Of a stretch of 64,000 nt of DNA, positions 5,608 to 59,536 are shown piece by piece. The DNA is from Pukyongia sp. (GTDB lineage Bacteria > Bacteroidota > Bacteroidia > Flavobacteriales > Flavobacteriaceae): positions 1 through 64,000 of the forward strand of contig JASBSY010000006.1 in assembly GCA_030148705.1 (NCBI GenBank). The letters run 5' to 3'. Every line of letters starts with the position of its first letter. Position 1 is the stretch's first letter. The position numbers and the translations under genes are program-made. Below the pieces are notes generated by a model. That model was not told the origin of the DNA. It searched no databases and saw only the letters and a program-made list of their open reading frames with translations.

Positions 5608-6318
5608 ATGTGTGATGATCTAAATCCAACATTAGCCATTTTGAAGACCTCCCCTAACCCTAAGAATGTATCGAACCGGCATCACAGCGATGAAATGGTT
5701 CAGCTGAAACTGAGAGCGTTCAGGTCGCAGCTCAATCCGCACTTCATCTTCAATTCACTAAGTGCTATTCAATACTTTATAACTACTGAAAACAAACGAC
5801 TGGCCGTAATTTACCTTTCGGTTTTCAGCAAACTCATTCGCTTTTATTTAAAACACATGGAGCAGGAGTCGGTTAACCTGGCAGATGAGATAGAAATGCT
5901 GAAAGCCTACTTCAGTCTTCAGAAACTTCGGTATAATGAACAATTTAGTTATGAGATCTTACAGGATGAAACCACATCTCCTTCCGAAGCAATCATTCCT
6001 TCCTTTATTCTGCAGACACTATTTGAGAATATCATCGAACACGCCATATACAATCAATACAGGGAATACAGCATCGTTATTAAATTCAAGGTCTCCGAAC
6101 AAAACGTAATTGTTCATACCGATTTCAATTACCTTGCGGGAAGAATCTCCAAAGCAGGGTACACTCCCGAATACCGCGCTAAGATAATGTTGTGGCAGGA
6201 TCAGATAAGGCTGCTGAACCAACTTCGGAATTATAAAATCAAAAAACGCGTTAGCTTCTTTAAAAACAGTATCTTAAATGGCGGAAATATAGTCGTTACC
6301 TTACCTAATCTGCAATAG
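5608..6318 (+). CDS. LytS-type histidine kinase module with degenerate ATP-binding region
   Basis: 236 residues, no membrane segment. The His_kinase (LytS/YehU type) phosphoacceptor region is intact: RSQLNPHFIFNSLSAIQYF with His45. The expected ATPase follows only in part: the N-box resembles LQTLFENIIEHAIYN (canonical LQP.VENA..HG), while the D-G-G box and the GxGL-N box cannot be found, and the chain ends with a strand-like VVTLPNLQ. Three nucleotides separate it from the next gene, a full-length kinase with nearly the same phosphoacceptor motif, and a LytTR regulator follows, so the three form one operon. Seen: intact His motif, missing G boxes. Inferred: it may be phosphorylated by, or pair with, the full kinase rather than act alone. 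Confidence 0.85.
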   Translation: MCDDLNPTLAILKTSPNPKNVSNRHHSDEMVQLKLRAFRSQLNPHFIFNSLSAIQYFITTENKRLAVIYLSVFSKLIRFYLKHMEQESVNLADEIEMLKAYFSLQKLRYNEQFSYEILQDETTSPSEAIIPSFILQTLFENIIEHAIYNQYREYSIVIKFKVSEQNVIVHTDFNYLAGRISKAGYTPEYRAKIMLWQDQIRLLNQLRNYKIKKRVSFFKNSILNGGNIVVTLPNLQ

Positions 6319-6321
6319 GAT

Positions 6322-8172
6322 ATGCCTGTTAAAACTAGGTGCCTTACCGTAATTATTGCAGTCCTGTGGCTTAATTGGGGCGCAGCGGGAGCGCAGGAAG
6401 CTTTAGACAGGAACGGTAAGGGTGTTTCCTTCTCCTTGTTTAAAACCAAGGACACTTCACTTACAATCGAGAGCATTATATCCGGCAATTACTACTTCAA
6501 AGACGGAAATGAGTTTACTGAAAGGTCGATGCCTTCAGACATATTCTGGATAAAGTTAGATTTCGGCGATGAATTTGCCAGGCTTGATACTGAAGAAAAA
6601 TGGTTTCTTCGCACGCCTGGTTTCGAATATGCCAGCCTGTATTTTCAAGAAAACGATATTATAAAAGAGATGAAATTTGGCAGGTTTCTGAACGAGAATC
6701 CCGAAAAAAGGTCGATCATGTACCTGGCAGGCATTCCATTTGAAAGCAATTCGCTTATCGATGGCAGGTACTTGTTTCTGAAGGTTAGGCGGGTAGTGTT
6801 ACTGGACCGCATAGACAAATGGAAAATAGCATACGGCTCGACGCTGCAGAATGATATAATAAAGGGATTCTACTCAAGTCGCGACATGGACGTGATGATT
6901 CCTATCTTTGTTTTCAGCGGAATCTGTTTGGTGATGTTTATCTTTACGCTGGGTTTCTATTTTTATACCAAACGCCAGGAATTCCTTTTCTATGCCGGCT
7001 ATGTGCTTTTTCTATTCCTTTACCTCACCGGGGACCTCTTCAGGCTTCCCCAATTGATTTTCGGTGAGTTCAACCTAATTAGCTATACCTTCTTCCAGGT
7101 GAATCAGGTTACTATTAACCTGGCTTATATCCTGTTTGTGATATACTATCTTGAAACCAAAGATTTTTACCCAAGATTGCATGTCGCCCTGAAGTGGATA
7201 GCCTATGTGCTGACGTTGGTGATTGTCCTCGATATCGCATTTCTATTGGCAGAATATTTTATCGGACATATTTATTTACTGGACCTCGAGCGGGTTATCA
7301 TGACGGTTTTCGGTCTGGTGGGAATGACCTATCTGCTCTTTAAGAGAAAGGACAAACTTGCCGTGTTTATAGTAACAGGCTCCTTCTGTTATATGCTTGG
7401 GGCATTGGGATTATTATTCCTCCGTCACCGCTTGTATATGGTAGTTGGATCTTCCCTGGAAATACTCATTTTCGCTTACGGACTTACCTATAAACTGCAG
7501 TTGGAGTACAAAGAAAGAATGCAGTTTCAAAAGGATTCGTTTGTGAATCAGAGCAGAGCCCTTCGCGCGCAGATGAACCCTCACTTTATTTTTAACTCCC
7601 TTAGTTCCATCCAGTATCTAATAAGTAATGAACAGAAAGAATCGGCGATCAAGTATCTCAATAAATTCAGCGCCCTGATGCGCAATCTGCTGGAGGGTTC
7701 TATCGAATCGAACAATCTACTGGCTAACGAGATCTCGCTGCTGGAAAAATATCTCGAACTGGAATCCCTGAGATTCGATTCTTCTTTCAATTATAAAATC
7801 ATTATAGACGAGAATATAGATACCAGTGCGATCGAGATTCCTACCCTAATTCTGCAGCCATTTGTTGAAAATGCAATCCTTCATGGCTTGCTGAATCGAT
7901 CACAGGCCGATAAGTTACTCCTATTGAGTTTTGCATTGGAAGATTCGTACCTGGTATGCAAAATCGAGGACAACGGGATTGGCAGAGAAGCAGCCGAAGA
8001 AATGAAATCTGCCCTGGTTGGATCGAAAAAATCACGCGGCATAGAGGTCACGGAAAAACGACTGCAAATGCTAAATAAACACCAGAATAATCATTTTCAA
8101 ATCATCGATAAGAAGGATAACAAAGGAAACTCCCTGGGAACGCTGGTGATAATTAAAATCTATATAGAATAA
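6322..8172 (+). CDS. 7TM-DISM sensor histidine kinase, LytS type
   Basis: 616 residues. Order: signal peptide (about 1-25), an extracytoplasmic all-beta sensor region resembling 7TMR-DISM extracellular domains (about 30-180), seven hydrophobic helices (about 190-400), then the kinase core. The phosphoacceptor motif is AQMNPHFIFNSLSSIQYL with His421. The ATPase has the N-box LILQPFVENAILHGL, the G1 box EDNGIGREAA and a late GTLVIIKI strand, so unlike its upstream neighbour it should bind ATP. DISM kinases are thought to sense small ligands such as carbohydrates at the cell surface. Partner: the LytTR regulator 12 nt downstream. Confidence 0.93.
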   Translation: MPVKTRCLTVIIAVLWLNWGAAGAQEALDRNGKGVSFSLFKTKDTSLTIESIISGNYYFKDGNEFTERSMPSDIFWIKLDFGDEFARLDTEEKWFLRTPGFEYASLYFQENDIIKEMKFGRFLNENPEKRSIMYLAGIPFESNSLIDGRYLFLKVRRVVLLDRIDKWKIAYGSTLQNDIIKGFYSSRDMDVMIPIFVFSGICLVMFIFTLGFYFYTKRQEFLFYAGYVLFLFLYLTGDLFRLPQLIFGEFNLISYTFFQVNQVTINLAYILFVIYYLETKDFYPRLHVALKWIAYVLTLVIVLDIAFLLAEYFIGHIYLLDLERVIMTVFGLVGMTYLLFKRKDKLAVFIVTGSFCYMLGALGLLFLRHRLYMVVGSSLEILIFAYGLTYKLQLEYKERMQFQKDSFVNQSRALRAQMNPHFIFNSLSSIQYLISNEQKESAIKYLNKFSALMRNLLEGSIESNNLLANEISLLEKYLELESLRFDSSFNYKIIIDENIDTSAIEIPTLILQPFVENAILHGLLNRSQADKLLLLSFALEDSYLVCKIEDNGIGREAAEEMKSALVGSKKSRGIEVTEKRLQMLNKHQNNHFQIIDKKDNKGNSLGTLVIIKIYIE

Positions 8173-8184
8173 ATAAGGCAACCT

Positions 8185-8943
8185 ATGAAATTAAAAGCAA
8201 TAGTGGTAGACGATGAACAGCACAGCCGGGAAACCCTCAAGGCAATGCTCGATGAATTTTGTCCGGATATAGAAGTGCTGCAGGCCCTTAGTTCGATAGA
8301 AGAAGCCCTGGTGGTAATTCCTAAACTAGACCCCGACGTGGTTTTCCTAGACATTGAATTGCAAACCGGGACAGGCTTCGATCTGCTGGAGCGATTAAAA
8401 ACTATAAATTTCGAGGTCATATTCACCACTGCCTTCGAACAGTTCGCAATCAGGGCAGTTAAATTCAGTTCGCTGGATTATCTGCTAAAACCCATCGACC
8501 TGGAAGAATTACTGATGGCAGTTGAAAAAGCCAAGAAAATTAAAGATAAGGACGTTTACAACCGGCAGTTGGAAACGCTGATTCAAAATTTAAAACAACA
8601 ACAGTCCGATTTGAAGAAAATTTGCCTTTCGACCTCTGAAGGCTATGAATTCATAAACGTGGAAGACATTATCTACTGCAAGGCCGAGGGGTCGTACACC
8701 CACTTTCAGCTTAAGAATAAAACCCGGCATCTGGTAAGCAAACATCTTAAAGAATACGAAAATTTGTTGTCTGAATACGCTTTTTTAAGGGTTCACAACA
8801 CCTATCTCATCAACCTGAAGGAGGTTAAGAAGTATATTAAATCCGATGGTGGATATATTTTGATGAACAACGACGAGGCTGTTGCTGTTTCAAGAACCAA
8901 AAAAGAGCTGTTCTTCGAAATGATGCGTACCATGTCCACCTGA
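8185..8943 (+). CDS. LytTR-family response regulator
   Basis: 252 residues: receiver domain (acidic pocket D9/D10, phospho-acceptor D56 in VVFLDIEL, switch Thr in IFTTAFEQFA, Lys in LLKPID) and a LytTR DNA-binding domain from about residue 145 (ICLSTSEGYEFINVEDIIYC ... RVHNTYLINLKEVKKY ... AVSRTKKELF). It closes the operon that starts at 5608 and is the expected target of the 7TM kinase. LytTR proteins bind direct repeats upstream of target promoters; none could be assigned here. Confidence 0.94.
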   Translation: MKLKAIVVDDEQHSRETLKAMLDEFCPDIEVLQALSSIEEALVVIPKLDPDVVFLDIELQTGTGFDLLERLKTINFEVIFTTAFEQFAIRAVKFSSLDYLLKPIDLEELLMAVEKAKKIKDKDVYNRQLETLIQNLKQQQSDLKKICLSTSEGYEFINVEDIIYCKAEGSYTHFQLKNKTRHLVSKHLKEYENLLSEYAFLRVHNTYLINLKEVKKYIKSDGGYILMNNDEAVAVSRTKKELFFEMMRTMST

Positions 8944-51178: not shown

Positions 51179-52384
51179 GTGAACCCTTCTGCCTCCGACT
51201 GGATCCCGAAATATCTTAGTCTTATCGATCCGGATTCCTTTGAAGAGAATTCGAGAACGCATGAATTTATTTATAAAAAACTGAAGGCAACGGGTTTTAT
51301 CTACGGAATTTCGCTCGAAACGGTCACCAATGATCCTCAAAGCCAGTTGAAGCTAACCCGAGAGGAGTTTACCAAGGTCAATTTGTTCCACGGGCTGTTG
51401 CATACGTATGTTGTTGAAACCAACGACCTCAACTTCGATAAGGCGCTGCTAAGTATAATTCGGTTCTATGAAGCTCTTAACAAAGCTAAAACCGGCTTTT
51501 TTAATAAGATTTCCTTCTCCTCATCAAAGTCGCAAAAGCTGGAAAAAATGTTGGCCGCGCGGATCCATGAGACCAACACTTTTCTCAATAGAGGTGTTAC
51601 GGGTGTCTTAACCTATGCACTTCTATATGTTGATATCCTGGCGTACAAGAAATCACTCCACCGACCAACTTCAGTAAAACTACATGCAGAGGAGATCGAA
51701 AAAACCGTAATTACCAGTTGTTACCTTGCATTGAGCTCAAAAAGAAAGAAGAACAAATACGACCGCTTACTAATCGATCTCTTCGAGTCTTCTGCCCTTT
51801 ACCTTGGAGATATATCAAATGCAGGAGAAATAACCTTGGATTCCCTTAAGTTTCCGGCATCGGCCGATTTGGTTGAAAAATCCTACATTCTGGATATCTG
51901 CACCATCAGCATATGGGACGACCATAAGATGGATGAGGACGAACACGAATTTCTGCTTAAGTTAACAAACCGACTGCAGCTAACCCATAAAGAAGTTGAG
52001 CAAAGTTTGGCAAGCCTGGCGAACTTTACGGCCTCTAATTCCACTTCAATAAAATTATTCGAATACGCCAACCCCGTTAAGTTATTTTATCGGCAATCGA
52101 CCGCAACCGTAAAACTCCTAATACTTCGAAATAAAAAAAGGCTGTTAAAGGAATTGGCTGAAAGCGGTGAATTGTTGTTATTGCTTACGGAATCTACGGT
52201 GCGGGAATTATCTGAAGAGGAGAAAACCAAGGTTAAGGACCAGATACTCGACATTTGCAAGACTATTCCCTCGCTCACGATTTTCCTGTTACCGGGAGGT
52301 ACGGTTTTACTGCCCATCCTAATTAAATTCATTCCGAAGTTACTGCCTTCGGCTTTTAATGAGAATAGGATAAAGAAAAAGTAA
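51179..52384 (+). CDS. LETM1-related protein, GTG start
   Basis: 401 residues. The start is GTG at 51179: the N-terminus MNPSASDWIPKYLSL matches what I recall of flavobacterial LETM1-related (biofilm-associated) proteins, and no ATG lies nearby upstream. The C-terminal region contains the LETM1 stretch IPSLTIFLLPGGTVLLPILI with KFIPKLLPSAFNENR; the rest is mostly helical. In mitochondria LETM1 concerns cation exchange; in these bacteria the role is not settled. It is divergent from the DUF4331 operon and converges with the LytTR gene, only 5 nt apart. Confidence 0.82.
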   Translation: MNPSASDWIPKYLSLIDPDSFEENSRTHEFIYKKLKATGFIYGISLETVTNDPQSQLKLTREEFTKVNLFHGLLHTYVVETNDLNFDKALLSIIRFYEALNKAKTGFFNKISFSSSKSQKLEKMLAARIHETNTFLNRGVTGVLTYALLYVDILAYKKSLHRPTSVKLHAEEIEKTVITSCYLALSSKRKKNKYDRLLIDLFESSALYLGDISNAGEITLDSLKFPASADLVEKSYILDICTISIWDDHKMDEDEHEFLLKLTNRLQLTHKEVEQSLASLANFTASNSTSIKLFEYANPVKLFYRQSTATVKLLILRNKKRLLKELAESGELLLLLTESTVRELSEEEKTKVKDQILDICKTIPSLTIFLLPGGTVLLPILIKFIPKLLPSAFNENRIKKK

Positions 52385-52389
52385 ATACC

Positions 52390-53145
52390 TTATTCCAACC
52401 AGAGTTTAAAATCCTTTACTCGTTCCCGGGCTACAATGATCTCTTGTTGGGTAAAATTGTTAAGCTTGAGCTTTAAACGACTGTTTGTGTATGAGATTAT
52501 ATCCCTGATGGCACGAATACTTATAATAAAGGTCCTGTTTACACGAAAGAAATTCTGGGGTTCCAGCTCTTCCTCCAGTTGCTCCAGCGTGGTGTCCAGC
52601 AGATAATCCCGGCCATCGGTTGTATGGGCATAGGTGCCTTTATTCTCCGAATAAAAGCATTCTATCTCGTCCACGGTAATCATCTTAATATGCTGCCCGA
52701 TCTTAGTGGTAAATCGCTTTTTATACACCCGTTCTACCGGGTTTGTAAGCAGTTTCCTGATATCGTCGAAGTTAATCTGCACATCTTTTCGCTGTGGAAT
52801 ACGGGCTTTGTATTTAGAAATGGCGGCCACCAGTTCCTCCTCATCTATAGGTTTTAAAAGGTAATCGATGCTGTTCAGCTTAAAGGCCTGTAAAGCGTAT
52901 TCGTCGAAAGCCGTGGTGAAAATTATTGCGCTGTTTACGTCCACTTCATCGAAGATCTCAAAAGACAAGCCGTCACTTAACTGTATGTCAAGGAAGATTA
53001 GGTCCGGATGTTCATTGTTTGAAAACCATTCCACGGCTTCGCCAACACTGTGAATCATCTCGTTAACGGCTACATCCTGTTTTTCGAGTAAACGCTGAAG
53101 TCTTCTGGCAGATGGTTTTTCGTCTTCGATGATAATTACGTTCAT
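52390..53145 (-). CDS. LytTR-family response regulator of the 2TM operon
   Basis: 251 residues: receiver domain with acidic E7/D8, phosphoacceptor D53 in LIFLDIQLSDG, IIFTTAFDEYA and LLKPID; LytTR domain from about 150 (FTTKIGQHIKMITVDEIECF ... RVNRTFIISIRAIRDI ... VARERVKDFKLWLE). It is the last gene of the seven-gene operon and is the expected partner of the kinase at 54571. Twenty-one nt separate it from the last 2TM gene. Confidence 0.94.
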   Translation of the reverse strand: MNVIIIEDEKPSARRLQRLLEKQDVAVNEMIHSVGEAVEWFSNNEHPDLIFLDIQLSDGLSFEIFDEVDVNSAIIFTTAFDEYALQAFKLNSIDYLLKPIDEEELVAAISKYKARIPQRKDVQINFDDIRKLLTNPVERVYKKRFTTKIGQHIKMITVDEIECFYSENKGTYAHTTDGRDYLLDTTLEQLEEELEPQNFFRVNRTFIISIRAIRDIISYTNSRLKLKLNNFTQQEIIVARERVKDFKLWLE

Positions 53146-53166
53146 ATCCTTGTAGCTCTTAAGTTG

Positions 53167-53502
53167 TTATTGCTCATCTTTATATTTTTCCAGTTCTTCC
53201 TTATCGCGTTCCATGAATTCACGGATCTTCCGTTCCTCCCACTTTTTAAACAGCCCCGATTTGAATTTAAAGACATACAGGCCGTGAAACAATACCCCAA
53301 TACCCCAGAAGAAGGGCGTGGTAAAATGGGCCCAATCCGGCATATACAGGCCAAAGTTTCCTTTGAATATCCCCATGGCTGCCAGCAACAGGAAGATATT
53401 CACCAGTATATAGATAATAAGGTGAGTGTAAAAACCTTTAATTTCCTCGACCCGTTTTTTGGCCTGTTCAAACTTCTTCTTTTCGTTATCGGAAATTTTC
53501 AT
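53167..53502 (-). CDS. 2TM-domain protein, copy 1
   Basis: 111 residues: charged N-terminal helix with KKFEQAKKRVEEIKGFYTHL, first membrane helix (about 26-46), a short loop, second helix (about 62-78, FFWGIGVLFHGLYVF) and a basic/acidic tail with WEERKIREFMERDK. This is the flavobacterial 2TM domain. Both conserved histidines (FYTH and FHG) are present. Its first codons overlap the stop of copy 2 by 4 bp. Function unknown; the location in a kinase/regulator operon suggests a role in signalling. Confidence 0.9.
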   Translation of the reverse strand: MKISDNEKKKFEQAKKRVEEIKGFYTHLIIYILVNIFLLLAAMGIFKGNFGLYMPDWAHFTTPFFWGIGVLFHGLYVFKFKSGLFKKWEERKIREFMERDKEELEKYKDEQ

Positions 53503-53840
53503 AGCAGATCGTTTATGTCTTTATTCTGTTGGTTCATGTACTCACGTATCTTGCGGTCTTCCCATCGCTTAATAAAGCCAAAGTTAAACCTATAGACATA
53601 CAAACCGTGTAGTACAAGTGCGATACCCCAAATTACAAACGTACCCCATACATTCCAGTCGAGCCATCGCTCAAACTGAGGGTCGAAGGAGTCTATTTTA
53701 AAAAGTGAGAGGAAATTTGCACGGATGAGTAAAATAATGAGGTTGATTATGATAAATGTCTTGAGATGGGAGTGAAACCCTTTGATAGCATCCACCTTCT
53801 TTTTTGCGCGTTCGTACTTTTCTCTATCGAATGATTCCAT
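53499..53840 (-). CDS. 2TM-domain protein, copy 2
   Basis: 113 residues with the same plan: YERAKKKVDAIKGFHSHLKT, first helix about 27-45, second helix about 67-85 (VWGTFVIWGIALVLHGLYVY) and tail WEDRKIREYMNQQ. It has the longest loop between the helices of the set. Both conserved histidines are present (HSH and LHG). It starts 10 nt after copy 3 ends. Confidence 0.9.
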   Translation of the reverse strand: MESFDREKYERAKKKVDAIKGFHSHLKTFIIINLIILLIRANFLSLFKIDSFDPQFERWLDWNVWGTFVIWGIALVLHGLYVYRFNFGFIKRWEDRKIREYMNQQNKDINDLL

Positions 53841-53850
53841 TGTTTTGCCT

Positions 53851-54156
53851 TTATTTCCACGTATTGGTTTTGTTATCTTCTTCCTCCATAAATTTCTTTA
53901 ATTGACGTTCTTCCCAGTCGCTGCTCAGGAAAGGGTTCCATCTGAAGGCCTTGGCCGCCTGAAAGAGCAACCCGATTCCCCAGCCGAAGGCAGCCCATAA
54001 AAACCACATATATCGCCACTGGTTGGTGTAGTAATTAAGAATTGCCAGGAAGCCTATGAACAATACATAAAAAATAAGCCCTGTATAGAATTTCTTAACC
54101 TGCTCTACGCGTTCTTTGGCTTTCAGATACCTGTTTTCTCTTTCGTTTAAGTCCAT
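53851..54156 (-). CDS. 2TM-domain protein, copy 3 (histidines lost)
   Basis: 101 residues: RYLKAKERVEQVKKFYTGLI, two helices (about 24-42 and 52-68, AFGWGIGLLFQAAKAF) and the tail WEERQLKKFMEEED. The two histidines shared by the other four copies are Gly (FYTG) and Gln (LFQAA) here, while the WEER tail and NPF motif (RWNPFLSSDW) are kept. It follows copy 4 by 13 nt. This copy may have a modified role; see findings. Confidence 0.9.
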   Translation of the reverse strand: MDLNERENRYLKAKERVEQVKKFYTGLIFYVLFIGFLAILNYYTNQWRYMWFLWAAFGWGIGLLFQAAKAFRWNPFLSSDWEERQLKKFMEEEDNKTNTWK

Positions 54157-54169
54157 AACTTTGATATGT

Positions 54170-54466
54170 TTAGAATGAGTTCAATTGGTCCTTATCAATG
54201 AATTCCTTGATCTTACGCTCTTCCCAACGCCTTCCGAAGAAAGGATTCCACTCGAATACTTCCGAAGCATGCCCCGCTACTCCAAGTCCCCATCCTAAAA
54301 TTGGAAAAAGTGCCCAGGGAAAACCCCCGCTTTTAATATTCAGATAAATAAATACCGGGATAAAAATCAGGTAAATTACAAAATGCGTGTAAAATCCTTT
54401 AAGTCTTTCAACTTTAGCCCTTGCTTTTTCAAGGCGAGAATATTGGTAGTCTGATTCTGGTTTCAT
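54170..54466 (-). CDS. 2TM-domain protein, copy 4
   Basis: 98 residues: RLEKARAKVERLKGFYTHFV, helices about 26-44 and 51-68 (PILGWGLGVAGHASEVF), then FEWNPFFGRRWEERKIKEFI. It is the free-standing copy most similar to the domain fused to the kinase (shared SGGFPWALFP/SSGFPWAIFP loop and NPFFG.RWEE tail), which suggests that one arose from the other. It is the first 2TM gene after the kinase, 104 nt downstream; that gap holds no gene. Confidence 0.9.
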   Translation of the reverse strand: MKPESDYQYSRLEKARAKVERLKGFYTHFVIYLIFIPVFIYLNIKSGGFPWALFPILGWGLGVAGHASEVFEWNPFFGRRWEERKIKEFIDKDQLNSF

Positions 54467-54570
54467 AATGCTCTTTTTAAAATTATAGTATAAAATTACG
54501 AGCTGTGATTCCTTCAGGAAAAAAAAACAGACTGAACTGTAAAAAGTATTGCCCGAATTGTAATCCGGGG

Positions 54571-55896
54571 TTAATCTTCGTTCATATACTTCCGAATCTG
54601 CTCCTCTTCCCAGCGCTTTCCAAAGAAGGGATTCCAGTTGAACACCTCAGCCGCATGGCCGAATACACCCAGTCCCCAGCCACCAATAGGAAAGATGGCC
54701 CATGGAAAACCGCTGCTGATAATATTCAACCAAATAAATACTGGTACCATAAACAAATAAATGCTAAAGTGAACATAAAAACCCTTTAATTCCTCTACCT
54801 TCTTTTTAGCTCTTTCATATCGCTTTCCACTAATGTAAGTATCCTGGTTTTTCAGAGTCATAGTCGCCCTGGTAAGCATGGGAATTGCAACTTCAAACTC
54901 TGTAGGCGACTTGGAAATGGTTACGGACCTGTCGGTTAACAAACTGTACCGCTGGCGAATATTCTGCAGTCCAACTCCACTGCTCTCCTTTACAACGTTC
55001 TTAGGCTGAACGTTGTTCTTTATGATAAGACATCCATCCCGCTCGAAGATTTCGATATGCAGTTTCCTGCCCGGGGTAACCTGGTTGTGTTTAACCGCAT
55101 TTTCCAGCAGTAACTGCAAGCTGAGCGGCACCACCTTTGCTTCGGGATTACTTATGGTGTCCGGTACGGTAAACACTATACTGTCCTCAAATCGCATATC
55201 GATAAGAGACATATAAAGTTTGGCGAACTTCAATTCCTCCTCCACAGTAATTAAGTCTTTATTCTTCTGTTCGAGTACGTAGCGGTACACTTTCGACAGC
55301 GAGGTGGTAAAGCGGGTTGCAGCTTCCGGGTTTTCTTCGATAAGGCTGGTAAGTACATTCAGGCTGTTAAAAAGGAAGTGAGGATCCAGCTGATTTTTAA
55401 GGGCATCGAACTGGGCAGAGGCCGATCGGGCGATGAATTTCTGTTCCTTTACTTTAGACTCCTGCCGGTGGCGATAATAATAGATCGCATAAAAAAGTGA
55501 GATCATTATCATCGAAATGATGAATCCCACATAATAATAATCGTATTGTTCTTCCGAAATAAACTGAAAAAACGCTTTCCCTTCAATTATGACCTCGGTA
55601 ATTATGCGTACAAAAAACAGGCCTATAAGGGTAACCAGCATCCCTCCCAAAATCGCTTTAATCAGATTTTTTTGCTTAAAGATGTCCGTTCTATACCGCC
55701 TCACCAAATAGGTGATTAATGCAGCATTGACCATGTACAGGACTATGGTATAAATCTGATTGTAAAAAAAAGCCGTAAGTAGTTCGCTTCCTGTTAGATC
55801 AAAATTGCCAACAAAAAACTGTATCAGGCCTAAAACAATAAATATTACGACCCCTGCAAAAAATGCTCTCCCTAGCTCTTTAAATACTCTAATCAT
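54571..55896 (-). CDS. LytS-type sensor kinase with fused 2TM domain
   Basis: 441 residues. Four membrane helices at the N-terminus (about 10-150), then the LytS-type core: phosphoacceptor LKNQLDPHFLFNSLNVLTSL, N-box LQLLLENAVKHNQ and G box SSGVGLQNIRQRYSLL; the usual D-x-G-x-G box reads as KNNVQPK, as in many LytS kinases. A 2TM domain is attached at the C-terminus (about 350-441, YERAKKKVEELKGFYVHFSI ... GWGLGVFGHAAEVF ... RWEEEQIRKYM). The fusion ties the free 2TM proteins to this pathway. Its start overlaps the stop of the upstream gene by one base. Confidence 0.93.
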   Translation of the reverse strand: MIRVFKELGRAFFAGVVIFIVLGLIQFFVGNFDLTGSELLTAFFYNQIYTIVLYMVNAALITYLVRRYRTDIFKQKNLIKAILGGMLVTLIGLFFVRIITEVIIEGKAFFQFISEEQYDYYYVGFIISMIMISLFYAIYYYRHRQESKVKEQKFIARSASAQFDALKNQLDPHFLFNSLNVLTSLIEENPEAATRFTTSLSKVYRYVLEQKNKDLITVEEELKFAKLYMSLIDMRFEDSIVFTVPDTISNPEAKVVPLSLQLLLENAVKHNQVTPGRKLHIEIFERDGCLIIKNNVQPKNVVKESSGVGLQNIRQRYSLLTDRSVTISKSPTEFEVAIPMLTRATMTLKNQDTYISGKRYERAKKKVEELKGFYVHFSIYLFMVPVFIWLNIISSGFPWAIFPIGGWGLGVFGHAAEVFNWNPFFGKRWEEEQIRKYMNED

Positions 55897-56522
55897 TAAT
55901 TACCACAATTTTCCTGGAGTACCTGTGCCGCGTATTCACCTCCTCCCCGAGGATGAAACTCACCGGCTGGCACTTCCGATTCGAATAATGCAATGGCTTT
56001 CTCAATGTCGGCACAATATTTATCGGTTGGTTGGCCGAAAAATCTCGCCGTACCTATATCCCATTGAGCCTTCCCCAGGACTACCCTTGGGTTTTCAGGA
56101 GCAAGTACGCTGGCCTGCTGGTACAATTCAGCGATCTTGGGCGAATACTTCATCCCGTATTGTTGTCCGTCGTAGACCACCCAGGCGGTGAGTAACTGGG
56201 CTTCGAGTACCAGTATTTCGGGATTGTCTTTAGTTAAGGACTTGGCGTCATTCAGAAAATCGCGGGCCTTGTTCATCTGTGCTATCATCTTTTCTTTATC
56301 GCTTTCTCCAAAACTATTGAACACATTTATTTGCGCCACATAAAAAGGTGGCAGCCAGTTCTCCGGTTCGGCCTGGGCTATACGTTCAAACAGATTGGCA
56401 GCTTCCCAGGGCTTGTCCGCCCCCCAAAGTTCGAAGGCCTTTTCCATGCCTTGCTGATATTTTGACTGTGCGAAGGTCCCTGTCGAGATCAAAACAACGC
56501 ATACTAATAGTAGTTTTTTCAT
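55896..56522 (-). CDS. Secreted TPR-like protein, first gene of the 2TM operon
   Basis: 208 residues from the ATG at 56522; an earlier in-frame ATG at 56561 would spoil the signal peptide MKKLLLVCVVLISTGTFAQ. The rest is helical with TPR-like repeats (GMEKAFELWGADKPWEAANLFERIAQ, KIAELYQQASVLAPENPRVV) and ends in YAAQVLQENCGN. It is exported, probably periplasmic, and coupled to the kinase gene (TAATG). It may be the sensing or accessory protein of the kinase, but this is inference. Confidence 0.85.
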   Translation of the reverse strand: MKKLLLVCVVLISTGTFAQSKYQQGMEKAFELWGADKPWEAANLFERIAQAEPENWLPPFYVAQINVFNSFGESDKEKMIAQMNKARDFLNDAKSLTKDNPEILVLEAQLLTAWVVYDGQQYGMKYSPKIAELYQQASVLAPENPRVVLGKAQWDIGTARFFGQPTDKYCADIEKAIALFESEVPAGEFHPRGGGEYAAQVLQENCGN

Positions 56523-56676: not shown

Positions 56677-57090
56677 TTATAATCGGATCGTCAGTTTCCT
56701 AGATTCGCCTCCCTTCAATTCGAATTTTGCATCTTCCCACTTGGGCGGACCAAAATATCCTCTGGCATTGTTCGATATACCATAGGGTTCGGTGGGAAAT
56801 AATCCGGCGAACATATTTAAAGAATTGCTGCCGTCTTGGTCGTGATAACAGGAGATTGCTTAGACCCCGTCTGTAATTCCCGTAAAGGTCACCACGGCCC
56901 TTCCGTCTACAATGTCAGCGCGTTTGGCCAAAATATACTGCTCGAGGAATTTTTCTTCACTATCATACAGGCCCACATGAACCTGTCCGTTGTTATTTTC
57001 GAAGTTGGTCATTGTAACTTCGATGGAGTTCTGTGCCTGCATTACCAGGCCGGTAAGCAACAGCATTAAATAAGAGATAACTACTTGCAT
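56677..57090 (-). pseudogene. DUF2141 protein gene with one in-frame TAA
   Basis: Starting at 57090 the reverse strand encodes a signal peptide (near VMQAQ) and the DUF2141 start (EVTMTNFENNNGQVHVGLYD, ... FTGITDGV), then TAA at 56862-56860. The same frame continues without another stop to 56677: AISCYHDQDGSNSLNM, then EPYGISNNARGYFGPPKW and FELKGGESRKLTIRL, all expected in this family. Family members read G.YAIS..HD here, so a tyrosine codon (TAT or TAC) has become TAA. As written, only 76 residues would be made. DUF2141 genes often sit by TonB-dependent receptors, as here. Confidence 0.85.
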
Positions 57091-57208
57091 GAGATTGTGT
57101 TTTTAGATTATTCAAATGTCCCTCGATTGGCAGACACTTTAAAAGTTTTTCGGTTGAACTGTTGAATTACTGTCCTGAACTGTGAAAATAAAAACAGACC
57201 GTGATGAC

Positions 57209-59383
57209 TTAGAGGTTGTCAAGTTGATTGTCACTACCATCTTTACTGATCGTCCAGAAGAAGCCCACAAAAAAGAACTGGTCGGCCGCAGGTCGTACGG
57301 TCCTGCGGTTAAAATTACCGTTGGCATCGGCCGTACTCGGATACTGATAGCCGTTTATATTTTTTGTACCCAACACATTGTTGACCGAAAAGTAAAGGAT
57401 CTTCTGCTGGGAGATTAAATATGCCCAGTTAAAGCTCAAACTGTTATATGCCTTAGTCTTTTCCTGAAGAAACCCGGGAACATTTGGGTTGGTGTATGTA
57501 CGTCCGCTGGCGAACTGGTGGCTGAAGCCAATCTGACTCTTCCAATCGTTAATCCACCATTTTACCACCGTAGAGAGATTGTGTTTATTCGCGAAGGAAG
57601 GTGTTGCGGCCACAGGATAATTCCGGTACATCCGTTCTGTATCCAAGAACGAATAACTTATCCAGTAATCTACGTTTTTAATGGTGTTATTATCGCGCCA
57701 AAAGAGGTCAAAACCCCGGGCATAACCATCGCCGTTGTTCTGAATTACGGAGTTGGTAACAGGAAATTCTGTATCGTAAGTGACTAGCTTATCATAGGTT
57801 TTCCGATATGCCTCTGCCCGCAGTATCCTATTGTTGGCAACGTATTGGTAATTCAGAATATAGTGTTGGGTATGTTGCGCCTCAAGGTTCCGTTCAAACT
57901 TCAATACATCATTAAAGGGCTGCTGATAGAAATCGCCGTAGGCCACAGACAGCTGACTGTTCTTTCCGGTCTTATAAGCCACTGAAGATCGTGGTGAGAG
58001 GGTGTATTGATCGAATAAGTCGCTGTATTCTCCTCTTAAACCAAGCTTTAGGGCAAATTTCCTGCTGAAGATAATATCCGATTCTGCGAAGACTGCTGAA
58101 AGATTGTTGTTAAAACCGTAGTTGTCGGAAAATTCGGGGTTTCGAAAATCTTCGGTAAAATCGGTGATAAATTGCTCTGCTCCGAAGCTTAATTTAAACC
58201 GGTTACTGAAACGCTTTCTGAGCTTAACTTTCAAATGGGCCGAATTTTCCCGGTTCTCGATATTATTATCCAGGAATAAAATATCGTTTTTGGAAATTGT
58301 AAAGCTCCCCCCCGCATCCAGTTTCCAGCTATCGTTTATATCTGTGCTGTAGCTGGTGTTGGTGTAAAAATTGTAATTCTTCAATTGGAAATCCAGGCCC
58401 TCCGGCAAATCGATATCTTCCTGGGTAAGTTTAAAGTTCGTACTGTCGAAAGCCGCATATACTTTTAAAAGTCCACCTTTAAGTTGCTGCCGATAAACAG
58501 CTTCTCCCGCAACAGCTTCAAAAGGTTTATCCCAGTCGTTCCTGTCGGGGAAAATCGCAATGTAGGGAGCCAAGTTGATATAAGAGGTGTTAAAACTCAA
58601 AGAACTCTTTTCCCATTTCTGGGTATTACCTATACCCCCACCCACAGTCATAACCGCCACGTCTGTCTTTTCCTGGTCCGGTTCGTCCACAGTGTTCAGA
58701 AGTAGTACCGAAGAGAGTGCCTGGCCGTATTCGGCAGAATAGCCTCCAGTGGAAAAAGTTATTCCGTCGAAGAGGAATGGACTGTAACGCCCCCGGGTAG
58801 GAATGTTGTTTGTTGTGGGAGAATAAGGTGTGAATACGCGTATCCCGTCGATAAAGATCTGGGTTTCCCCGGCGTCTCCTCCCCTTACGAACAAGCGTCC
58901 GTCTTCGGCAACCGTTGTCGTTCCCGGAAGGGTTTGCAATGCACCCACAAAATCCCCGAGAGCACTTGCCGTGGTCACCACATCCAGCGGTTTTAGCACC
59001 GAAACCTTGCTGTTATCGCTGGCTTCCAGGGTTCCCGCCGAAATTACTACGGTGTCGAGCGAGTTCACATCTTCACGAAGTGCAATTTTCAAGTTTTTCA
59101 TTTGGGAAACATCGGCTGCCATCATAAACGGCTCGTAGGAAACATAAGAGATCACCAGGGTTTGCACCCCTTCTTCTTCAGTTACAAATGAAAATGCCCC
59201 GCTGGCATCGGTAGAAGCCCCGTCGTAAGTTCCGTCAAGATAAATATTCGCCCCTTCAATGGGTGTTCCGTTCTTTGCGGTAACTATACCCGAGATTGTT
59301 GTTTGCGCGCCAACCCAGGCTGTAGCAAGCAGCGTGAATAAGTTTACAAGGATGCTTTTTAACGGTGACTGAATCAGGATCAT
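57209..59383 (-). CDS. TonB-dependent receptor with carboxypeptidase-like N-domain
   Basis: 724 residues from the ATG at 59383, which gives a signal peptide ending near WVGAQ; an in-frame ATG 32 codons earlier is not credible. A CarboxypepD_reg-like domain (about 28-112, ISGIVTAKNGTPIEGANIYL) leads to a plug domain (GDFVGALQTLPGTTTVAEDG, RLFVRGGDAGETQIFIDG) and a beta-barrel with repeated strands, ending WTISKDGSDNQLDNL. It imports a substrate across the outer membrane with TonB energy. There is no SusD partner, so it is not a glycan-utilisation pair; the ligand is unknown. The barrel end is not the usual aromatic-terminal residue. Confidence 0.93.
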   Translation of the reverse strand: MILIQSPLKSILVNLFTLLATAWVGAQTTISGIVTAKNGTPIEGANIYLDGTYDGASTDASGAFSFVTEEEGVQTLVISYVSYEPFMMAADVSQMKNLKIALREDVNSLDTVVISAGTLEASDNSKVSVLKPLDVVTTASALGDFVGALQTLPGTTTVAEDGRLFVRGGDAGETQIFIDGIRVFTPYSPTTNNIPTRGRYSPFLFDGITFSTGGYSAEYGQALSSVLLLNTVDEPDQEKTDVAVMTVGGGIGNTQKWEKSSLSFNTSYINLAPYIAIFPDRNDWDKPFEAVAGEAVYRQQLKGGLLKVYAAFDSTNFKLTQEDIDLPEGLDFQLKNYNFYTNTSYSTDINDSWKLDAGGSFTISKNDILFLDNNIENRENSAHLKVKLRKRFSNRFKLSFGAEQFITDFTEDFRNPEFSDNYGFNNNLSAVFAESDIIFSRKFALKLGLRGEYSDLFDQYTLSPRSSVAYKTGKNSQLSVAYGDFYQQPFNDVLKFERNLEAQHTQHYILNYQYVANNRILRAEAYRKTYDKLVTYDTEFPVTNSVIQNNGDGYARGFDLFWRDNNTIKNVDYWISYSFLDTERMYRNYPVAATPSFANKHNLSTVVKWWINDWKSQIGFSHQFASGRTYTNPNVPGFLQEKTKAYNSLSFNWAYLISQQKILYFSVNNVLGTKNINGYQYPSTADANGNFNRRTVRPAADQFFFVGFFWTISKDGSDNQLDNL

Positions 59384-59536
59384 TAGTTGTATGGTGTTTT
59401 TGATTTCGACTTCAAAAATGACACTTTTTGTGAGAGCGTTTACAGAATTCTGTCTCAAATGTTGGATTTTATATCTCAATTGTTAATGGCATGAATTGAT
59501 TTGAAAAAGCCGTATATTTAAAAAAAGATAATTCTC

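Follow-up and report, generated by a model that had tools for sequence, protein, structure and literature searches.

Gene content of the operon

The question raised by this locus is what four small membrane proteins do in one operon with a LytS-type kinase that carries a fifth copy of the same domain. That domain is 2TM (PF13239), a Pfam family for which we know of no function. The window, a 64,000-nt stretch of a Pukyongia sp. contig (JASBSY010000006.1), contains the following operon genes:

52390..53145, minus strand: LytTR response regulator (REC + LytTR), 251 aa (Pfam)
53167..53502, minus strand: free 2TM protein D, 111 aa (Pfam); membrane histidines H1/H2 present (class by profile)
53499..53840, minus strand: free 2TM protein C, 113 aa (Pfam); H1/H2 present (class by profile)
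53851..54156, minus strand: free 2TM protein B, 101 aa (Pfam); of a class in which H1/H2 are usually both absent, replaced here by G and Q (profile)
54170..54466, minus strand: free 2TM protein A, 98 aa (Pfam); H1/H2 present (profile)
54571..55896, minus strand: LytS-type kinase, 441 aa, with N-terminal membrane part, His_kinase/ATPase core and C-terminal 2TM (54580-54816) (Pfam)
55896..56522, minus strand: exported TPR-like protein, 208 aa (signal peptide by eye, sub-threshold TPR)

In a preliminary description, the region had been read as a seven-gene operon with a LytTR regulator, a LytS-type kinase ending in 2TM and five 2TM copies (four free, one kinase-fused), the genes overlapping or lying a few bases apart except for 104 nt after the kinase. 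All of this was confirmed: the seven genes lie on the minus strand at the coordinates described, with intergenic gaps of -1, 104, 13, 10, -4, and 21 nt, and Pfam recovered REC and LytTR in the regulator and His_kinase (PF06580) as well as 2TM in the kinase. All five 2TM domains exceed the Pfam cut-off of 24.8 bits (68.3 to 99.8 bits for the free proteins and 93.4 bits for kinase residues 361-439), and the family here gains a context; the genome holds six such domains, five of them in this operon. Protein A is the free copy nearest to the kinase-fused one (62% identity). For the first protein, export agreed with a signal peptide seen by eye, whereas the TPR assignment drew sub-threshold matches only; the protein is conserved, being in view in 87 of 103 relative operons.

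The phospho-acceptor histidine motif of the kinase, DPHFLFNSLNVL, was invariant in the 73 kinases compared. One solved structure was matched by the kinase sequence, the histidine kinase 6swj/6swk, which the fold search names as the kinase domain of GanS; among the 50 matches listed in that search, all were histidine-kinase entries save one phytochrome and one BceAB-S complex. Sequence searches for solved-structure relatives of 2TM, and of the TonB receptor and DUF2141 protein encoded nearby, returned none.

Operators and promoters

As read from its sequence, the 104-nt gap contains a promoter and, with it, an operator of LytTR type made of two 9-bp repeats, 12 bp apart. Three such operators, and the further genes that they precede, were located in the window:

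54532..54561, minus strand: operator 1, ACAATTCGG-N12-ACAGTTCAG, within the 104-nt gap after the kinase, 0 mismatches; 65 bp before the free-2TM/regulator unit
54491..54498, minus strand: -7 promoter element TAATTTTA, 34 bp downstream of operator 1 (sequence reading and spacing rule)
56677..57090, minus strand: DUF2141 secreted protein gene, broken by an in-frame TAA, first 76 codons open
57113-57120, minus strand: -7 element GACATTTG of operator 2 (sequence reading)
57154..57183, minus strand: operator 2, ahead of the DUF2141-TPR-kinase unit, 63 bp from the ATG, 1 mismatch
57209..59383, minus strand: TonB-dependent outer-membrane receptor with CarboxypepD_reg_2, Plug and beta-barrel (Pfam; start from comparison with relatives)
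59413-59420, minus strand: -7 element CATTTTTG of operator 3 (sequence reading)
59454..59483, minus strand: operator 3, ahead of the TonB receptor, 70 bp from the ATG, 1 mismatch

The co-regulated cluster putatively reaches past 56522, where the preliminary description had ended, to 59483. The DUF2141 gene is intact in same-genus genomes. By count alone, the sites of the window's own genome are not significant (three against two control matches); its four DUF2807 genes carry no operator site (best 4-5 mismatches), and a search of it for the second DUF2141 of six sister genomes found none.

Relatives gave a much larger sample. The gap operator scored at least 10 of 12 in 54 of the 69 operons whose gap is at least 45 nt (shuffle expectation, 1.7). 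A scan of 135 operon loci, 1.80 Mb in total, gave 304 sites at up to two mismatches against 8 for the reversed pattern; 246 of the 304 stand 20-160 bp ahead of a gene for 2TM, TonB receptor, DUF2141, TPR or kinase. Of 200 distinct sites, 191 have the -7 core AnnTTT exactly 34 bp past the operator; other offsets gave a mean of 3.5, the next best being 45 (offset 7). No clear operator site was seen in either scanned region of 50 of the 136 operons. In four Dokdonia-type genomes the free-2TM/regulator unit is on a different contig from the kinase, and each split unit still has a -7 element 34 bp past its operator (0-1 mismatch).

Sites distant from a kinase also precede TonB receptor, TPR, DUF2141 and DUF2807 genes. 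Of 26 exact sites of this kind, 21 were retrieved (in 20 regions), and the -7 match at 34 bp is missing at seven of them. DUF2807-type lipoproteins appear among the operator targets in five genomes, Pfam having been run on three of the five. Site comparison thereby shows the promoter geometry and the predicted gene targets of the regulator. Because the operator stands before several gene types in the window and in relatives, a self-inducing regulon of several units is predicted, which suggests that the sensor would turn on its own genes together with an outer-membrane receptor. The operator-promoter rule is precise and predicts regulon members in Flavobacteriales, DUF2141 and DUF2807 proteins included.

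The promoter and operator in the 104-nt gap, the other operators and the TonB receptor and DUF2141 targets go beyond the preliminary description. A carotenoid role for DUF2141 was considered and dropped: PMC5989583 and PMC9241875, in excerpt, give co-location only, and the five proteins scanned around DUF2141 at one relative locus (L319) include no carotenoid gene. In the excerpt of PMC3597751, DUF2141 is merely listed.

Complementary 2TM copies in relative operons

Relatives were collected by their fused kinase. From 126 fused-kinase loci, 22 were removed as short duplicates and L105 as a repeat of L044, leaving 103 operons; 39 more were retrieved later, any near-duplicates among them included. 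A regulator is in view beside the kinase in 88 of the 103 and 38 of the 39, and the copy count below covers these operons (n = 126), leaving out the 15 and one (L250) with no regulator in view. Nine of the 15 lie on loci of at least 17 kb. Four of the 103 operons, outside the count, have no free 2TM in view: in L068-L070 the free set is elsewhere in the genome, and in L020 the contig ends 0.2 kb past the kinase and the genome has one other 2TM.

At least one copy with and at least one without the first membrane histidine were found in 122 of 126 operons, whichever copy is fused, and a stricter form of this complement rule held in 118; shuffled maxima, from shuffles that ignore phylogeny, were 114 and 113, respectively. 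All 13 two-domain operons obey the rule, and no operon of the 126 has a lone 2TM domain. The eight strict-rule exceptions comprise seven from one other family (f5) plus L261; H1 and H2 were assigned by MAFFT column, and alignment error may account for a few of these. On the kinase tree, at least four changes on the starred branches are needed to account for the Q-type fused copy. Opposite-charge replacements at the two histidine positions in four genomes (K/D, K/E, R/D) hint that the two positions touch. Co-loss of the histidines was dropped as covariation evidence, the paired loss being mostly of one clade; the supported independent pairs number only 6-7 and settle nothing.

Three loci are of particular use. 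In L080 (one metagenome contig), kinase and both 2TM types form one kinase+2TM+2TM protein, the second 2TM having been compared with free B copies on a tail-only alignment, as MAFFT on full length could not place B. In L173, from another family, a free 2TM adjoins a LytS kinase without a fused copy, and L264 is without any copy, fused or free, the sole other 2TM of its genome adjoining DHFR. With pTM values of 0.45 and 0.44, AlphaFold models of the kinase and of the L080 2TM-2TM tail support no contact of 2TM with the kinase, and no particular packing of the two tail hairpins.

Together with the recurrence of the kinase-2TM gene in the 103 and 39 operons, nearly always with free 2TMs, and with fused and free copies that differ in type and swap roles, these loci uphold the earlier proposal that 2TM proteins are part of the signalling path. 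The neighborhood survey set beforehand was divided. In a phylum sample of 123 2TM domains, 78 belong to LytS operons that include a fused kinase, one is beside an unfused LytS, one is ~3.7 kb from a kinase/regulator pair, 16 are beside or fused to DHFR and 27 are elsewhere; distant kinases and regulators may have escaped notice, since the profiles used for them were derived from the kinase-2TM family. Beyond Flavobacteriales, the majority of the 2TM genes found lay away from LytS/LytTR genes. 2TM thus occurs outside signalling too, with DHFR.

Proposed mechanism and alternative readings

These comparisons support the free 2TM proteins as predicted membrane subunits of the kinase. The wording of the preliminary description, that they tune kinase output, is set aside: a heteromeric and probably obligate subunit is the better fit, because nearly every operon retains a copy of His type and one of non-His type, also where both are fused to the kinase. 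Overall, we think it fairly probable that the cluster encodes a LytS/LytTR two-component system that regulates its own genes and activates three units, with a membrane sensor assembled from the kinase and small 2TM hairpin subunits. In the inner membrane, free 2TM proteins would pack with one hairpin tethered by the kinase, so that every assembly would have one or more hairpins bearing the membrane histidines and one or more that lack the first. An envelope signal would switch the kinase, leading, as its family suggests, to phosphorylation of the LytTR regulator. The regulator would then bind the 9-12-9 direct-repeat operator, which the -7 element follows at 34 bp, and activate the TonB receptor, DUF2141-TPR-kinase and free 2TMs-regulator units. 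Since the free 2TMs and the regulator share the responding promoter, more free 2TM should be made as the response grows, a built-in feedback that could be of either sign.

Three other readings were weighed. The free 2TMs could be inducible membrane inhibitors, like LiaF or the membrane components of LytTR Regulatory Systems (LRS): produced in step with the response, they would switch off the kinase, or restrain the regulator, and thereby reset the system; they share a gene row and operator with the regulator, and LRS membrane inhibitors offer a precedent with 9-12-9 repeats and autoregulation (PMC6193735, in excerpt). We regard this as unlikely, as a diffusible titrating inhibitor is impossible in L080, no counted operon has a lone 2TM domain, and LRS work without a kinase, whereas the regulator here has a receiver domain. 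It is less plausible still that the free proteins are effectors stabilizing the membrane under envelope stress, the kinase copy being a mere anchor. Such a role would suit the envelope proteins among the targets, the DUF2807-type lipoproteins included, and the 2TMs that are DHFR-linked or stand alone elsewhere, but role swaps with the fused copy and the complement rule argue against it, as do L264, where both kinds of copy are absent alike, and L173, where a free copy adjoins an unfused kinase.

Least credible is binding of the repeats by another LytTR protein, with the operon's own regulator not controlling the cluster. A second LytTR regulator does exist in the window, at 8185, but exact sites track the kinase-2TM gene (39 of 89 kinase-positive versus 4 of 207 kinase-negative genomes, 296 genomes in all), and 32 of 63 exact sites lie within 10 kb of the kinase.

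The subunit reading gives a membrane family of no known function a testable role. A bolder extension of it, which we hold as possible yet rather doubtful, is that PF13239 proteins are intramembrane signalling subunits that act as paired hairpins: every sensor would need one whose histidines face each other near the inner membrane face and one without histidines, and either could come fused or free. Sensing would be done by the histidine pair, as a metal, haem or proton site, in a new class of multi-subunit histidine kinase guarding the TonB and outer-membrane machinery in Flavobacteriales. Were the paired-hairpin rule to hold, these would be kinases that recruit exchangeable membrane subunits.

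Comparison with known systems

A literature search, in which subscription journals were thinly covered, found no description of the kinase-2TM system or of His and non-His 2TM classes, and the excerpts of PMC9425974 and PMC5395568 contain nothing on the system. The cluster is, by its gene content, a variant of LytS/LytTR signalling: as in BtsS/BtsR, YpdA/YpdB and LytSR, a His_kinase-type membrane kinase is found beside a REC-LytTR regulator, and BtsSR likewise has a transport gene under control (PMC10653868, in excerpt). Unlike those systems, this one has a C-terminal 2TM on the kinase, free 2TM genes, and TonB receptor, DUF2141 and TPR targets behind one operator.

In LRS (HdrRM, BrsRM), an autoregulated promoter is preceded closely by two repeats of 9 bp, in most cases with 12 bp between them, and small membrane proteins are described as sharing an operon with a LytTR regulator (PMC6193735, in excerpt); the direct-repeat operator at the target promoters here has similar geometry. 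LRS work without a kinase and pair the regulator with a membrane inhibitor, whereas the window cluster has a kinase gene and a receiver domain on its regulator; the relatives were chosen by kinase. LiaFSR/Psp resembles the cluster in having a kinase with a partner membrane protein but differs in kinase type, regulator and membrane protein (PMC11237479, in excerpt). The same excerpt places DUF2807 in the Toastrack group.

The operon in the window and in its genome

Reading of the sequence confirmed the seven minus-strand genes of the preliminary description, and the computed intergenic distances (−1, 104, 13, 10, −4 and 21 nt) agreed with it. In Pfam searches the regulator (REC plus LytTR), the four free 2TM proteins and the His_kinase protein with its C-terminal 2TM domain (PF13239) all scored above the cut-off. 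Six 2TM domains were found in the genome, five of them inside the operon. The features concerned are as follows.

52390–56522, minus strand: operon for an exported TPR-like protein, a LytS-type kinase with fused 2TM, four free 2TM proteins and a LytTR regulator
Contig C16:52408–52653 of the same genome (G000): sixth 2TM gene (L005), overlapping a dihydrofolate reductase (DHFR) gene
51179–52384, convergent: LETM1-like gene, found close by in 54 of 103 operon loci
5608–8940: another pair of LytS-like kinase and LytTR regulator genes, with no 2TM gene
56677–57090: DUF2141 gene with an in-frame TAA

Copies of this DUF2141 gene are intact in same-genus genomes, and the TAA may reflect either a genuine loss or a fault in the assembly; no second DUF2141 gene was found in the genome.

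Operator and promoter

Alignment of the 104-nt gap, which separates the kinase gene from the free-2TM/regulator unit, in 12 relatives including the window revealed two direct repeats. The gap is 45 nt or longer in 69 operons, and 54 of these match at least 10 of 12 operator positions, versus 1.7 in shuffles. The search pattern was ACARTTSRK-N12-ACARTTSRK. At one mismatch or none, the genome has three sites, all on the minus strand of the window: one ahead of the free 2TMs, one ahead of the DUF2141 gene and one ahead of a TonB receptor. Versus two sites for the reversed-pattern control, this is not significant by count alone. Six sister genomes gave 31 sites versus 2 for the control. Each of the six repeats the window's three sites and adds a fourth, ∼15 kb off or on another contig, that precedes a second DUF2141 gene. 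Of these 24 sites, 21 lay 63–80 bp upstream of the start codon; at the remaining three, an in-frame Met occurs upstream of it. Across 135 operon loci, 304 sites with at most two mismatches were counted versus 8 for the control, 246 of which precede 2TM, TonB receptor, DUF2141, TPR or kinase genes at median distances of 60–77 bp.

The promoter consensus of Bacteroidota is TAnnTTTG. Of 200 distinct sites, 191 have a −7 core (AnnTTT) precisely 34 bp downstream of the operator, a spacing that played no part in selecting the sites; other offsets had a mean of 3.5, the runner-up being offset 7 with 45, a T-rich stretch. On this sequence evidence, the 104-nt gap is a promoter. Its operator has the same layout, a 9-12-9 repeat just upstream of the promoter, as described for LytTR regulators (PMC6193735). 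No clear site was seen in the gap or scanned upstream region of 50 of 136 operons.

Sites beyond the cluster

A search of 296 genomes from the order located 63 exact sites, spread over 43 genomes. They occur in 39 of the 89 kinase-positive genomes and in 4 of the 207 that lack the kinase (Fisher p ∼2e-19, uncorrected for genome size or kinship). Thirty-two sites were within 10 kb of the kinase and 26 elsewhere in kinase-positive genomes; the 20 regions fetched cover 21 of these 26. Genes within 85 bp encode TonB receptors (three), TPR proteins (two), DUF2141 proteins (two), DUF2807-type lipoproteins (five) and other proteins (two), and seven of the 21 sites had no gene start within that distance. 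A strict −7 match was absent at seven of the 21, including one site that precedes a DUF2807-type gene. The operator-preceded DUF2807-type (Toastrack-group) lipoproteins, at L333, L335, L338, L345 and L347 in five genomes (Pfam was run on three of the five), hint at an envelope-stress regulon; the DUF2807 genes of the window's own genome had no site.

Copy number and histidine classes

Of 126 fused-kinase loci, 22 were short duplicates and L105 repeated another locus (L044); their removal left 103 operons, to which 39 were added later. With some of the 103 cut by contig ends, free 2TM copies numbered none in 5, one in 7, two in 35, three in 35, four in 19 and five in 2. A regulator was not in view in 15; since nine of these are on loci of at least 17 kb, their regulator must sit elsewhere. 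In operons near the window's own, copy classes A, B, C and D follow the kinase copy in order.

Two histidines characterize the 2TM domain, the first where TM1 begins and the second toward the end of TM2. Both are present in 272 of 430 aligned domains, and 64 have Ser and Gln instead; class B is the copy usually lacking both. A strict complement rule asks that an operon combine one or more two-histidine copies with one or more that lack the first histidine. Among operons with the regulator in view, 86 of 88 in the first set and 32 of 38 in the second follow this rule, 118 of 126 in all; scored on the first histidine alone, 122 do. When domains were shuffled between operons, with kinship ignored, the mean was 98 by the strict rule (maximum 113) and 100 by the first histidine (maximum 114). 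The strict-rule exceptions were L098, L153, L229, L230, L231, L234 and L235, all of family f5, which we take to be Weeksellaceae, and L261. All 13 two-domain operons pair a copy with and a copy without the first histidine. The Q-type fused copy requires at least four changes on starred branches of the kinase tree, and all eight first-set operons with such a copy have both-histidine free copies.

Association of 2TM domains with the kinase

2TM was present in 20 of 31 close genomes and in 45 of 198 sampled over the phylum. Neighborhoods of every 2TM place in these 45 were fetched. Of the 123 domains counted there, 78 belong to operons whose LytS-type kinase carries the fusion, 16 adjoin or are fused to DHFR, one adjoins an unfused LytS kinase (L173), one is ∼3.7 kb away from a pair of kinase and regulator genes (L186) and 27 are in other settings; distant kinases and regulators may escape this count because the two profiles were built from the operon's own family. 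On this tally, the expected proximity of 2TM to LytS/LytTR genes held as a rule in Flavobacteriales and not outside that order. In a strict search, 89 of 296 genomes of the order had the kinase, one of them (G430) without the 2TM part.

Three loci bear on whether the genes are chance neighbors. At L080, a single metagenome contig, one 544-aa protein joins the kinase to two 2TM domains, one with both histidines and one of S/Q type, and there is no free copy; L173, from another family, has a free 2TM in a row with a LytS kinase that lacks the fused domain and with a LytTR regulator; and L264, in G430, has kinase and regulator without fused or free 2TM, the sole 2TM found in that genome adjoining DHFR. 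These arrangements argue that the products would form one membrane assembly.

Free 2TM genes were not in view at four of the 15 regulator-less operons (L020, L068, L069 and L070). The L020 contig stops 0.2 kb past the kinase, and that genome showed only one other 2TM. The other three genomes each carry, on another contig than the kinase, three tandem free 2TMs and then the regulator, the outer two copies having both histidines and the middle one K/D, K/E or R/D; a fourth (L071) has a similar set in addition to linked copies. The detached sets are led by the same operator (0–1 mismatch, −7 core at 34 bp) and, together with the sole DHFR-side 2TM of the L264 genome, support the overall interpretation without raising its odds. 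Their middle copies (L356, L357, L358 and L359), with Lys or Arg at the first and Asp or Glu at the second histidine position, show an opposite-charge pair. In two Dokdonia contigs (L068:6477 and L070:6483) the operator precedes a 222–223-aa protein, without a Pfam match in L068, that by eye appears membrane-bound.

At the level of sequence comparison, the gene set, fusion, operator, promoter spacing and targets are demonstrated. From their families, the kinase would transfer phosphate to the regulator; the 2TM hairpins probably assemble with the kinase in the membrane, and free copies made from the responding promoter may set its composition or output, a feedback that could be positive or negative. 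An envelope signal is the likely input, given that the target genes encode outer-membrane proteins, secreted proteins or lipoproteins. AlphaFold models gave helical hairpins with long flanking helices, packed without confidence. LytS/LytTR systems and LytTR repeats are already known; the literature searched contained no description of a kinase with exchangeable 2TM subunits or of its regulon, and the system is regarded here as a new form of LytS/LytTR signaling with both.

A second 2TM type linked to DHFR

A second Flavobacteriaceae 2TM type adjoins, overlaps or is fused to DHFR at 25 of 26 non-operon loci examined (L005, L088–L097 and L154–L167), nine of them fusions; L168 is the sole exception. 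This linkage suggests a membrane-tethered DHFR. In a further 2TM class from other families of the phylum (L187, L191 and L193–L195), aspartate replaces the second histidine, and two of these proteins, examined over their whole length, carry an additional segment at the N-terminus.
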